NCBI GenBank assembly: GCA_008534395.1
Contig: SHMQ01000001.1
Coordinates: 124,001 to 188,000, forward strand
Length of the DNA: 64,000 nucleotides
Direction of reading: 5' to 3'
From: Candidatus Acidulodesulfobacterium acidiphilum
Lineage (GTDB): Bacteria > SZUA-79 > Acidulodesulfobacterales > Acidulodesulfobacteraceae
This document shows positions 56,252 to 60,769 of this stretch, piece by piece. Positions within the stretch are counted from its first letter, which is position 1, and every line of letters starts with the position of its first letter. Made by a program: the position numbers and the translations under genes. Under the pieces are notes generated by a model, which was not told the DNA's origin, searched no databases, and saw nothing but the letters and a program-made list of their open reading frames with translations.

Positions 56252-56881
56252 ATGAAAAAAGCAAACGGAGTAGAAATCTACGAAAATTTAAAAGAGATAC
56301 TGAATCCGGAGCGTTCTTGCCTTGTCGTGTGGGATGTTCAAAACGGCTTGGTTTCCAGAATATATAATAAAACGGAATTTGTTTCCGATATTAAATATTT
56401 GATAAATGCCTTAAGGGGTAAAATTCCCATAGTATATACCCTTATAACCCCTGCGGCAAAAGAGTTCAGGTCTTCATGGTCGTATTACGCTATGATGAAG
56501 CGTTTCGGCGTTGACGATCCCGCTAAACTTCCAGATTTTATGGCGAAGGGTTCAAGCGACAGAAATATTCTCGAAGATATAGCGCCGCAGGATGGCGATA
56601 TACTGCTTGAGAAGCCTACGGCAAGCATATTTATCGGAACTTATTTTGAGCAGATGATGAAAAACAGGAACATAAATACTATTATTTTTACCGGAATAGC
56701 CACGGAAATAGGGGTCGAATCTTCTGCAAGGGATGCGGCAAACCGCGGATTTTACCCTGTAATCGCAGAAGACTGCGTATCTTCTATGGATAAGGACGCT
56801 CACGGCAGGTCTTTGGAAAATATGAGAAAAATGTTTATATGCGAAAATTCTGAAACTATCGTGGAAAATATTCTTAAATAA
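56252..56881 (+). CDS. isochorismatase-fold hydrolase lacking the catalytic cysteine
   Basis: Cysteine-hydrolase (isochorismatase) superfamily protein of 209 residues. Asp28 (VVWDVQNG) and Lys121 (EKPTASIF) of the usual Asp-Lys-Cys triad are present. At the nucleophile position, GIATEIGVESSARDA has Gly154 where amidases and nicotinamidases have Cys. True isochorismatases such as EntB also have Gly here, so the fold and mechanism may resemble those, but there are no siderophore genes nearby. GGAGATAATATG gives a good start. A partial copy of its 3' end recurs at 59.4 kb. Confidence 0.78.
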   Translation: MKKANGVEIYENLKEILNPERSCLVVWDVQNGLVSRIYNKTEFVSDIKYLINALRGKIPIVYTLITPAAKEFRSSWSYYAMMKRFGVDDPAKLPDFMAKGSSDRNILEDIAPQDGDILLEKPTASIFIGTYFEQMMKNRNINTIIFTGIATEIGVESSARDAANRGFYPVIAEDCVSSMDKDAHGRSLENMRKMFICENSETIVENILK

Positions 56882-56915
56882 AATTATATGATTCTGCCAA
56901 ATCAAAAAAAAGCAG
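56774..56915 (+). repeat. copy A of a duplicated isochorismatase-end segment
   Basis: The last 36 codons of the isochorismatase gene and about 35 bases beyond recur at 59372-59507 at roughly 80-85 percent identity by eye. Beyond the stop, copy A contains ATGATTCTGCCAAATCAAAA, a decayed version of the start of the molybdopterin-binding gene that follows copy B. Confidence 0.7.
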
Positions 56916-57144: not shown

Positions 57145-58650
57145 TTAAAATAACGGTTTGCCCACGTCCGATACGTCTTTCAAAGCAGCATCGGTTTCAC
57201 CGTTATCTTTTTCGAACGGTATAATATCAATAGAATCATCGAAATCAGCCATATATATTTTTTGTTCTTTTTTAGAAACCAGCAGCCATATTGTATAGCA
57301 AAGTCCCATTAAAAGCATAATAGCAGTAATTAAATCAATTGAAGAACCGAAATATTTGGGTCCGTAAACAAAAAATAATGCAAGAATAGTTCCTAAATAT
57401 ATAAAAACAAAAAAAGCGCCGGATAAGATAATAATATGATTGTGATTAGTTATGGAATGTTTGATGTTTTTATGATATTTTAATAAAAATATTATAGTAT
57501 TAAAACTGTCTAAAAAAAACTCCGCTACTAAAAAAAATCCTGCCGTCGCCAGAACTATATTAAAAAAATTTTCAAACGAGGGAAAAAAAATTTCTAACAA
57601 AATCGTTGCGAAAGATAGAATCAGCGGTATTAATATAGACCATTTTGGAACTCTTTTTTTTGATAAAAATCCAAAAAATTTTGGCATTATTTTGTCTCTC
57701 GACATTGAAAAGAGCGCCCTTGACAATATAAAAGTAGTAAGCCATAAAGACCCTGCCGTCGAAGCAACTAAGGCTAATTTTATAACCGGCAGAATAGCGG
57801 GATTAGTATTATTAGCCCATGCAAGTAATACGTCGGGACTTGATTTTAATGTTTTTAAAGACGTTTCATGAAGTAAAATAGGCCATATAATATAATAATA
57901 AACAACTACCATTATTGCGCCTATTATTCCGCTTTTACCCGGAGTTAATTTTGGCTTTTCCGATTCTTCTGAAGCATATGAATCTATTTCCCAGCCATCA
58001 ACAATCGTAGCCCCAACAATCATGCATACTAATATTCCGGAAAAATTAAAATTAGAAAATGAAAATATACTGCCGCTATGCATGCCGTATGAAAATTTAT
58101 CCCATATTCTATATCCTATGACCCCTATAAGCAAAACAGCTATAATTTCTACAAATAAAAATATTTGAGTAACAATTGCGGTTAATTTTGTGCCGTATAA
58201 TAAAACTAATCCGGCAAAAGCAGTCCATATTAATGCAAACAAGATTTCATAAGAAACATTAAATTGATTAAAACCCAGCAAATCAAGCGTAAATCTGGAT
58301 GCCGGAATTAAAATAGGCGGTATAGACCAAAAATATGCCATTATTATAATCCAAGCCTGAAAATTAGAATAATTAATGCCGACTATTCGTCTTGACCAGT
58401 GATACGATGCGCCCGCATTAGGAAAATGTTTGTTTAATACTAAAAAAATCCATGATGAAATTAGAAACGGCAACGCAATTAAGCCTATAGCCAAAGGTAC
58501 GTATAGTCCCGCGCTTTGAACCATACTCGTTCCTGCGGCTGCAATGCTAAATATGGGCGCTACGCTTGAGATTGAAAGACTCGATAAATCGAATAATTTT
58601 AATATCTGATGAAGTTTATTTTTGTCGCCGGCAAGACTACTTCTTTCCAT
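57145..58650 (-). CDS. APC-superfamily amino acid/amine permease under cobalamin riboswitch
   Basis: Integral membrane transporter of 501 residues with about 12 helices. It has the broken-helix signatures of the APC superfamily near residues 33-45 (APIFSIAAAGTSMVQSAG) and NFPNAGASYHWSRRIVG (GASYH region) shared with amino-acid and polyamine permeases. Substrate cannot be read. A cobalamin riboswitch immediately upstream (58680-58883) suggests the transport need is relieved or raised by adenosylcobalamin status, for example ethanolamine or aminopropanol uptake, or methionine under B12 control. GGGGGG close to the start serves as ribosome-binding site. Confidence 0.8.
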   Translation of the reverse strand: MERSSLAGDKNKLHQILKLFDLSSLSISSVAPIFSIAAAGTSMVQSAGLYVPLAIGLIALPFLISSWIFLVLNKHFPNAGASYHWSRRIVGINYSNFQAWIIIMAYFWSIPPILIPASRFTLDLLGFNQFNVSYEILFALIWTAFAGLVLLYGTKLTAIVTQIFLFVEIIAVLLIGVIGYRIWDKFSYGMHSGSIFSFSNFNFSGILVCMIVGATIVDGWEIDSYASEESEKPKLTPGKSGIIGAIMVVVYYYIIWPILLHETSLKTLKSSPDVLLAWANNTNPAILPVIKLALVASTAGSLWLTTFILSRALFSMSRDKIMPKFFGFLSKKRVPKWSILIPLILSFATILLEIFFPSFENFFNIVLATAGFFLVAEFFLDSFNTIIFLLKYHKNIKHSITNHNHIIILSGAFFVFIYLGTILALFFVYGPKYFGSSIDLITAIMLLMGLCYTIWLLVSKKEQKIYMADFDDSIDIIPFEKDNGETDAALKDVSDVGKPLF

Positions 58651-58679
58651 TTGACCCCCCGCAAATGTAAATTAAATCA

Positions 58680-58883
58680 TTTAAAAGCAGGTCTTCCGGC
58701 TTGAGCATTCGGATAATCAGCCTTCCCAACATTTATACTAATAATATATGTATAATAAATACATATATTATATTATGAATTATGTAAGTGGCTTAATTGT
58801 AATTAGATTATCCTTAAAAAACGATAACTCTTACGGCTGCGGGTACAGCATAGGCTTTTAACCTATTTCCCTTGTCTTTTAAA
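58680..58883 (-). promoter_or_regulatory. cobalamin riboswitch
   Basis: The minus strand carries the core GGGAA-x3-GGTT-x-AA-x-GCC with GCTG-x2-CCCGCAGCCGTAAG (core bases within 58831-58873). Near the 3' end is a B12 box, CAAGCCGGAAGACCTGC (58687-58703). Terminal arms TTTAAAAG (58876-58883) and CTTTTAAA (58680-58687) pair as P1. This matches the AdoCbl-riboswitch layout. It ends about 30 bases before the permease start, so it likely controls translation. Confidence 0.9.
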
Positions 58884-58958
58884 CGGTTGTGAATTTGTTT
58901 TTATTTTTTTCTATCTTTATATATATGACATATCCCAAATATTTTTCAATATGCTATA

Positions 58959-58987
58959 AATATATTTTAAAATTTAATAAAAGTCAA
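58959..58987 (-). promoter_or_regulatory. promoter for riboswitch and permease
   Basis: Minus strand TTGACT (58982-58987), a 17-bp spacer, then TATATT (58959-58964). Each hexamer has five of six consensus bases. It lies about 75 bp before the riboswitch. Confidence 0.6.
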
Positions 58988-59111: not shown

Positions 59112-59200
59112 AATAAATAGAATTAAAATTTATTAAAGTTTATCTACTTAGTTAATATATAAAAATGACCGAAAGCGAATTTATAAATATTCTAAATTAG
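59112..59200 (+). pseudogene. truncated copy of the LRV-gene start
   Basis: These bases repeat the leader and first 11 codons of the LRV gene at 60251. The copy begins with ATTAAAGTTTATCTACTTAGTTA and continues to ATGACCGAAAGC and ATAAATATTCTA, reading MTESEFINILN and then a stop at 59198-59200. Divergence starts exactly where the true gene continues KTGDF. It is a recombination remnant. Confidence 0.7.
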
Positions 59201-59301: not shown

Positions 59302-59475
59302 ATGGATATAAAAGAATTTAATGCAGGTTATTATAAACAGCGATACGGATATAAAAGTTTTATACCTTCTTGTATCGATACGGATAAGGAAGCACACGGC
59401 AGGTCATTAGAAAATATGAGAAAAATGTTTATATGCGAAAATTCTAAAATTATCGTTGAAAATATTCGTAGATAA
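59302..59475 (+). pseudogene. chimeric Fic N-terminus joined to isochorismatase tail
   Basis: A 57-codon open frame whose first 22 residues (MDIKEFNAGYYKQRYGYKSF, then IP) resemble the N-terminal segment of Fic-family AMP transferases. The last 32 residues (from DTDKEAHGRSLENMR) equal the C-terminal end of the isochorismatase gene at 56.8 kb. No Fic catalytic motif follows. It is best read as a fusion scar of two genes by recombination. Confidence 0.6.
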
Positions 59476-59507
59476 ACTTATATGATTCCGCCAAACCAAA
59501 AAAAAGT
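59372..59507 (+). repeat. copy B of a duplicated isochorismatase-end segment
   Basis: Matches 56774-56915 (copy A). It includes CACGGCAGG, GAAAATATGAGAAAAATG, TTTATATGCGAAAATTCT and then the ATGATTCCGCCAAACCAAAA that starts the molybdopterin-binding protein gene. The two copies bracket the permease and its riboswitch. Confidence 0.7.
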
Positions 59508-60030
59508 AGAAGACCTGATTCAGCTTGATTTAGGATATATTCCGGACGTAAACATCGACGACTACAGGCTTACGATACAAGGATCGGTCGAAAATCCGGC
59601 GATTTTCACTTACGAAGACATCGTAAAAATCGGTAACGATAAAGTAACCGACGACTTTCACTGCGTTACCGGTTGGACTAAAGAATCGGCGGAATGGGAG
59701 GGCGTTTTGTCGAAGAAACTTGCCGCTATAGTCAAACCCCTTAATAATGCAAAATACGTTTTAATAGGTTCTTACGACGGTTATACGACAAACGTAGATA
59801 CCGATTTCCTTCTTAAGGACAACTCGATATTTGCCTTAAAATATGCGGGGCAAATTTTAACTCCGGAACACGGTTTCCCCGTTCGCCTCGTTATTCCCGA
59901 TAAATATGCATATAAAAGCGCAAAATGGATAAAAACGATTACCTTTTTAGACAAAGAAGAGCTTGGATACTGGGAGCAAAGAGGCTATTCCAACGGCGCA
60001 GACCCGTTCAAAGAAGAAAGATATGCTTAG
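59482..60030 (+). CDS. sulfite oxidase-type molybdopterin-binding domain protein
   Basis: A 182-residue Oxidored_molyb (sulfite oxidase/YedY-like) domain. Cys61 in DDFHCVTGW is the molybdenum ligand. EWEGVLSKKLAAI, SYDGYTTNVD and HGFPVRLVIPDKYAYKSAKWIKTI are the conserved pterin and C-terminal blocks. There is no Tat or other signal, so unlike YedY it would work in the cytoplasm. Its start is embedded in duplicated sequence, and its upstream neighbour was once the isochorismatase gene. Substrate unknown; sulfite or methionine sulfoxide are only family possibilities. Confidence 0.8.
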   Translation: MIPPNQKKVEDLIQLDLGYIPDVNIDDYRLTIQGSVENPAIFTYEDIVKIGNDKVTDDFHCVTGWTKESAEWEGVLSKKLAAIVKPLNNAKYVLIGSYDGYTTNVDTDFLLKDNSIFALKYAGQILTPEHGFPVRLVIPDKYAYKSAKWIKTITFLDKEELGYWEQRGYSNGADPFKEERYA

Positions 60031-60131: not shown

Positions 60132-60250
60132 GTAATACCCTACTATGATATAATTAATTATGTATTACAAATATAAATAAATAAAATTAAAATTGGAATT
60201 AGAATGAAAATTTATTAAGTTTATCTATTTAGTTTAGTTAGTATATAAAA

Positions 60251-60769
60251 ATGACCGAAAGCGAATTTATAAATATTCTAAAAACCGGCGATTTCAAAGA
60301 GCGGTTTAATGCCGTAAGCACGGCGGATACCTCTTATCTCATTCACGCTCTTAACGATAAGGACGAAAACGTAAGATATAAAGTCGCCTCAAGAATATCC
60401 GCCAAAAATTTAACGCCTCTTATAAACGACCCGTATAAAGAAGTACGTCTAATAGTCGCAAAAAGAATAGACGCAAAAGAGCTTCCAAAAATGCTCAACG
60501 ACAAATCTTTCTGGGTAAGGCATGCGGTCGCCGAAAGAATAGACGAATCTTTTCTGCCTTCATTAATGAGCGATAAAGAGCCGATAGTAAGAATTAAGGT
60601 CGCCGAAAGAATAGACCCGAAATATTTAAAGGATATGATTAAAGACGACGAAGCATTAGTAAGAAAAGCCGTGTCTAGAAGAATCCCCGAAGAATATTTG
60701 TCTTTAATGAAAGACGACAATAGCGAAAGCGTCAGAAATATCGTTGCCGAAAGGACGTCTAAGTTATGA
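60251..60769 (+). CDS. leucine-rich-repeat-variant (LRV) protein
   Basis: A 172-residue protein made almost wholly of about six helical repeats of 22-24 residues with the pattern D-x4-VR-x2-VA-x-RI-x4-L-x2-(L/M), e.g. DKSFWVRHAVAERIDESFLPSL. This is the leucine-rich repeat variant (LRV) pattern described with nitrogen-fixation associated proteins, but without an N-terminal Fe-S domain. It probably is a protein-binding scaffold. It overlaps the SDR gene by 4 bp (ATGA). Its leader and first 11 codons are duplicated at 59.1 kb. Specific function unknown. Confidence 0.75.
   Translation: MTESEFINILKTGDFKERFNAVSTADTSYLIHALNDKDENVRYKVASRISAKNLTPLINDPYKEVRLIVAKRIDAKELPKMLNDKSFWVRHAVAERIDESFLPSLMSDKEPIVRIKVAERIDPKYLKDMIKDDEALVRKAVSRRIPEEYLSLMKDDNSESVRNIVAERTSKL

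Follow-up and report, generated by a model that had tools for sequence, protein, structure and literature searches.

A cobalamin riboswitch directly ahead of an APC-family permease: a mobile cassette that may have taken over the place of a NiCoT cobalt transporter

The window, which means here the whole analyzed stretch of 64,000 nucleotides from Candidatus Acidulodesulfobacterium acidiphilum, contains on its reverse strand a cobalamin riboswitch and, directly behind it, the gene of an APC-family permease (Table 1). The aptamer matched the covariance model RF00174 with 48.6 bits, compared with a gathering score of 31.5 (E 4.4e-9), and the alignment covers the full model from position 1 to 189. 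An Rfam scan of the 64-kb window yielded this match only, and within the near-complete 2.09-Mb genome the copy ahead of the permease is the sole RF00174 element. Thus, the cobalamin riboswitch postulated in the original prediction is real. It was also correctly located directly ahead of the permease, but the gap between aptamer and ATG comprises 18 bases and not 30. Most of a hairpin designated P13 and the Shine-Dalgarno sequence are located within these 18 bases. The span from 58651 to 58987 extends from the -35 box of a putative promoter through the last base ahead of the ATG. As the next downstream gene is located on the opposite strand, the permease forms a single-gene unit. The ligand is presumably adenosylcobalamin (AdoCbl), judged from the riboswitch family.

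Table 1. Position of the riboswitch, the permease and the flanking elements within the window.
Feature	Position	Strand	Basis
Direct repeat copy 1, 131 bp, 3' end of isochorismatase-like gene	56785..56915	+	89% identical to 59379-59509
APC-family permease (PF00324), 501 amino acids	57145..58650	-	ORF and Pfam match; purifying selection in four genomes
P13 hairpin CAUUUG-CGGGGGGU-CAAAUG, expression platform	58648..58667	-	sequence; P13 covariation in the phylum
Cobalamin riboswitch aptamer RF00174	58669..58895	-	covariance-model match, full model
B12 box AAGCCGGAAGACCUGC, 3' part of the aptamer core	58687..58702	-	sequence and RF00174 alignment
L5 loop UACCCG; CCCG able to pair with L13 CGGG (kissing loop)	58840..58845	-	RF00174 alignment
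Putative sigma-70-type promoter, TTGACT (58987-58982), 17-nt spacer, TATATT (58964-58959)	58959..58987	-	consensus scan
Direct repeat copy 2	59379..59509	+	131-bp repeat flanking the cassette

The stem of P13 is a perfect helix of 6 bp. Its loop holds the Shine-Dalgarno sequence GGGGGG, its 3' strand holds the AUG, and the CGGG of the loop is complementary to the CCCG of aptamer loop L5. Within the phylum the stem is found in several variants which all retain the pairing (UAAUUAG/CUAAUUA, CAUUUG/CAAAUG and UUUGG/CCAAA). An analysis of P13 together with the L5-L13 contact in 11 distinct sequences revealed that 96% of the cells were paired and that five pairs were changed on both sides, while the four L5-L13 pairs were invariant in all 11. 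None of 500 shuffled versions was as good, and slid versions were paired to 32-51%, a control that somewhat favours the P13 stem, because the stem was read off from those same sequences. A comparable platform is known from the env8 riboswitch, in which binding of the ligand docks the P13 loop with the ribosome binding site on L5 and blocks translation; the window riboswitch likewise carries its ribosome binding site in the P13 loop opposite a complementary L5, and differs from env8 in the long peripheral arms of its aptamer (PMC10907184). The covariation of P13 and the predicted complementarity of L5 and L13 point to a platform that is switchable by docking of L5, and a kissing-loop switch that turns translation off is very likely the mechanism. 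With bound ligand, L5 would dock onto the P13 loop, the Shine-Dalgarno sequence and the start codon would be hidden and translation would be off, so that the importer would be made only under AdoCbl scarcity. This repression of the permease by AdoCbl is presumed from the published mechanism.

A putative sigma-70-type promoter precedes the aptamer by about 64 bases. Promoter-like sites are frequent in AT-rich DNA, with 17 found and 17.7 expected; a single site is no better than chance. The TTGACT-17-TATATT motif is kept, in sequence and in position, in all four genomes that contain the cassette (G000, which is the genome of the window, G016, G028 and G029), and due to this conservation a promoter of its own, as proposed earlier for the permease, is probable.

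The assignment of the permease to the APC family could be confirmed by a match to the Pfam family AA_permease (PF00324) with 60.6 bits (cut-off 24.6), which covers residues 24-458 of the 501-amino-acid ORF and is full-length as in APC amino acid permeases. All NCBIfam equivalogs remained far below their own cut-offs. The dN/dS values across the four genomes are between 0.07 and 0.15, which indicates purifying selection. Searching the PDB with the family profile resulted in 46 matches, all of them amino-acid or SLC12 transporters and none of them an NRAMP protein; the best solved relatives by sequence are CAT4, SLC7 members and GkApcT. In the regions of TM1 and TM6 the permease can be aligned to amino acid permeases with the 'APxYSLAAT' / 'GWDxxxxxSEE' pattern. 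The permease differs from these proteins in its location under a cobalamin riboswitch and in Asp218 within TM6. This residue is rare among the aligned homologues and common only to the closest outside homologue, and it could suit a cationic substrate. The nearest protein found outside the phylum is merely about 26-29% identical, and at the distant homologues, which were found in 386 genomes, no cobalamin riboswitch was detected within the stretches examined. AlphaFold2 modeling of the permease, with an alignment of three near-identical sequences only, reached a pLDDT of 34, too low for the model to be of use.

For the two families of metal transporters considered here, the comparison was negative. 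Membership in the NiCoT family is defined by the NicO profile (PF03824) and the motif HAxDADH(I/L) in TM2; the Pfam scan of the permease gave PF00324 only and no match to NicO. The permease is also unlike NRAMP proteins, with no Pfam match to PF01566 and with the DPGN and MPH motifs absent, and separate NRAMP genes are present in the genome. NRAMP proteins and APC permeases share the LeuT/APC fold superfamily, and this fold is able to carry divalent metals.

The targets of the riboswitch were compared in 30 genomes of the phylum, all of one family. Most RF00174 copies of this family precede, by about 20-36 bases, an ORF with the NiCoT motif HALDADHIAAID, and PF03824 confirmed these ORFs as NicO. 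The view that the permease is an unusual target therefore holds, since the riboswitch is almost always located ahead of NicO in this sample. NiCoT proteins are known cobalt/nickel transporters, and those predicted to carry cobalt are associated with B12 genes or with AdoCbl riboswitches (PMC7689651). The permease was found in four of the 30 genomes (G000, G016, G028 and G029) with a mutual identity of 94-97%, and in each of them it starts 18 bases after the RF00174 element. Like the riboswitch-NiCoT units of the phylum, the cassette consists of a single gene behind the same riboswitch design at a similar distance to the start codon, and it holds the same place in the regulon; unlike them, it encodes a member of another transporter family without a NicO match.

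NicO is absent from G016 (99% complete), G028 and G029, and the window genome contains one NicO, which is located on contig C5 and belongs to a separate, riboswitch-free clade. A riboswitch-permease and a riboswitch-NicO were found together in none of the 30 genomes. Neither the cassette nor NicO was detected in G025, a genome of 92% completeness inside the permease clade, which may be due to an assembly gap. As G025 and some incomplete genomes are without both cassette and NicO, loss of NicO is not rare. The riboswitch-free NicO of the window genome (G000:C5, L134, 6357-8444) lies behind a beta-carbonic-anhydrase-like gene (PF00484), and its clade includes related NicO proteins of G026 and G027. 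A further NicO, in G001 (C81, L147, ~2140-2260), retains the Shine-Dalgarno loop sequence but has lost the aptamer and is therefore probably no longer under B12 control.

The sequence comparison demonstrated that the window organism acquired the cassette horizontally and that riboswitch and permease crossed a genus boundary together. G016, G028 and G029 are not of the genus of G000. In a 20-kb housekeeping region, protein identities between G000 and the other three genomes amount to 44-82%, compared with 94-97% for the permease, and the dS value between G000 and G029 is 0.09 for the permease and 2.2 for MetH. The unit of riboswitch and permease, 1.9 kb in length, shows 97% DNA identity between G000 and G029, and the similarity stops shortly outside of it. 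The pair of 131-bp direct repeats flanking the cassette is probably a trace of the insertion. In addition, a 49-bp direct repeat (59148-59196 and 60234-60282, 98% identical) was observed, which is a copy of the start of a HEAT-repeat-like gene (60251) placed upstream of the riboswitch; it suggests several rearrangements around the cassette.

These rearranged surroundings with their 131-bp and 49-bp repeats, and the finding that G017 has a riboswitch without NicO behind it, would also fit an accidental link, in which recombination split the riboswitch from a NiCoT gene and the cargo of the permease is unrelated to B12. We consider this very unlikely: the pairing of riboswitch and permease is kept in four species with an intact P13 hairpin, ribosome binding site loop and AUG position, the permease is under purifying selection, and both elements were transferred between genera as one unit.

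The fate of the resident cobalt transporter could be followed in the closest relatives of the window genome. According to the MetH tree these are G002, G005, G012 and G014, all with a riboswitch-NicO. In G005 this unit sits between a rarA-like gene and a Fur-like/NRAMP gene pair. On the syntenic contig C28 of G000 the aptamer and the NicO residues up to about position 288 (~85%) are gone; what is left is promoter-side sequence and a remnant of 55 C-terminal codons with 89% identity (L156, 7176-7340). The remnant at the syntenic site indicates that the lineage which took up the riboswitch-permease has lost its resident riboswitch-NiCoT by deletion. Nearby, the porin-like gene that follows NRAMP is shortened as well, with 129 amino acids compared with 429 in G005.

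A tree of the leader sequences places the riboswitch of the permease as sister (support 0.91) to that of the NiCoT genes in G021 and G023, and the P13 stem is identical in the two. G021 and G023 belong to the genus of the cassette donors. From the sister position and the shared P13 stem it seems that a NiCoT-type riboswitch was re-assigned to the permease in a lineage of the donor genus. G027 has a riboswitch-NicO whose type occurs in other genera, and therefore riboswitch-NiCoT units also seem to be mobile. A MetH protein tree placed G027 inside the permease clade and had raised the idea of a reverse swap, in which the permease would have been lost and a riboswitch-NicO regained; this idea was dropped, because DNA trees place G027 outside the permease clade (support 0.98 and 1.0). 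Altogether, the cassette was gained independently two times; both gains coincide with the absence of a riboswitch-NiCoT, and one of them with a visible scar.

Taken together, a takeover of the NiCoT slot by the permease is probable. Against it stand the riboswitch-free NicO retained in G000, the observation that loss of NicO is not rare in the phylum, and the small number of cassette gains, of which no more than two independent ones are seen. The comparative evidence, with the permease present where NiCoT was lost, makes the cobalt-uptake slot, rather than the B12-related amines, the leading hypothesis for the cargo.

The gene content of the 30 genomes is relevant for the possible cargo. CbiC, a marker of corrin synthesis, is present in all of them; these genomes therefore make corrins and need cobalt. 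Neither CbiM nor HupE was found in any of the 30 genomes. CbtC-CbtX have been named as further candidate cobalt transporters (PMC2667541). NRAMP genes occur in 29 of the 30 genomes, usually in two copies, and are uninformative because of their presence nearly everywhere. The domain set of MetH could be confirmed in G000, and a matching B12-binding ORF exists in nearly all genomes. MetE is restricted to G017.

With MetH as the only methionine synthase outside G017, the permease could import methionine or S-methylmethionine at low AdoCbl, and the loss of NiCoT would be separate or secondary. Methionine, one of the cargoes named in the original prediction, fits the presence of MetH and the absence of MetE, and the family of the permease is that of amino acid permeases, to which type the known S-methylmethionine permease MmuP also belongs (PMC3228920). 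Moreover, cobalt and methionine can each rescue hupE mutants of Synechocystis (PMC7689651), and supply of the one is therefore physiologically equivalent to supply of the other. The four reported classes of cobalamin-riboswitch regulons (B12 synthesis, transport of B12 or its precursors, cobalt transport and isozymes) do not include methionine transporters (PMC3766115). Import of methionine would also leave unexplained why the permease is present exactly where the riboswitch-NiCoT is missing and why its riboswitch is nearest to a NiCoT riboswitch, and the permease is lacking in the other genomes of the phylum that depend on MetH only. We judge this reading to be unlikely, yet a serious rival.

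Transporters of B12 precursors are one of these known target classes (PMC3766115), and the permease might take up a building block of B12, such as (R)-1-aminopropan-2-ol or threonine (nucleotide-loop linker), ethanolamine or 5-aminolevulinate. An APC permease would be well suited to small amines, and a cationic substrate could be accommodated by Asp218. Specific support for ethanolamine and aminopropanol, which had been suggested at the outset, was not obtained: no amine-related genes were seen adjoining the permease, the corrin marker is present in all 30 genomes, and uptake of a building block gives no reason for the replacement of a cobalt transporter. A role in building-block uptake is a serious rival too, but quite improbable, more so than import of methionine.

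For the cobalt-uptake slot we propose the following explanation. The mobile cassette would consist of two parts, the cobalamin riboswitch and the APC-family importer, and would stand in for the NiCoT cobalt transporter which, under riboswitch control, is the rule in the phylum. The permease would most likely supply cobalt, as ion or as small chelate, for the de novo synthesis of B12. We give this explanation as a whole, a mobile AdoCbl-repressed cassette serving cobalt supply, a little less than an even chance. Its central element, cobalt as the cargo of the permease, is a hypothesis that we put forward tentatively. That the permease stands under cobalamin-riboswitch control in the place of a known cobalt transporter, in an organism that synthesizes B12, is circumstantial evidence for such a role. 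The profile of the permease speaks against cobalt, as it resembles an ordinary amino acid permease without the motifs of metal transporters, and the NRAMP proteins encoded in 29 of the 30 genomes could import cobalt as well. We know of no APC amino-acid permease that carries cobalt. To classify the protein as an importer of cobalt or a cobalt chelate, that is, as a non-orthologous replacement of NiCoT which spreads between genera as a riboswitch-gene cassette, is accordingly a possible but rather doubtful step.

The riboswitch, the expression platform and the permease family are each of a known kind. In a literature search of incomplete coverage no APC permease linked to a cobalamin riboswitch was found, and, as far as the searched literature goes, an APC permease that is the sole target of a cobalamin riboswitch and replaces NiCoT appears to be new. 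Many cobalt transporters were first recognised by a cobalamin riboswitch or by their position in a B12 operon (PMC7689651). In the window genome, the single position under control of this riboswitch is occupied by a permease of the amino acid type, and only a piece of the usual cobalt transporter survives. Should the substrate of the permease prove to be cobalt, this would add an unexpected class of substrates to a large transporter family that has been studied well; if it carries methionine, uptake of the product would replace acquisition of the metal in a strategy that spares B12. The case also shows that pairs of riboswitch and gene move between bacteria as units.

Two further riboswitch loci were observed in G017. 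On contig C13 (L055, 3329-3491) a cobalamin riboswitch is located ahead of nrdD-nrdG, followed by metE on the same strand, an arrangement that fits the classic control of B12-independent isozymes. On contig C16 (L056, 3846-5884) the riboswitch is followed by about 450 bases without NicO and then by a beta-barrel porin of the BBP2 type. A porin-like gene that shares the stretch FGTFASSYT overlaps the end of the riboswitch-NicO in G009 (L049, 1991-3355). The porins located at these riboswitches of G017 and G009 are possibly an outer-membrane partner for cobalt uptake.
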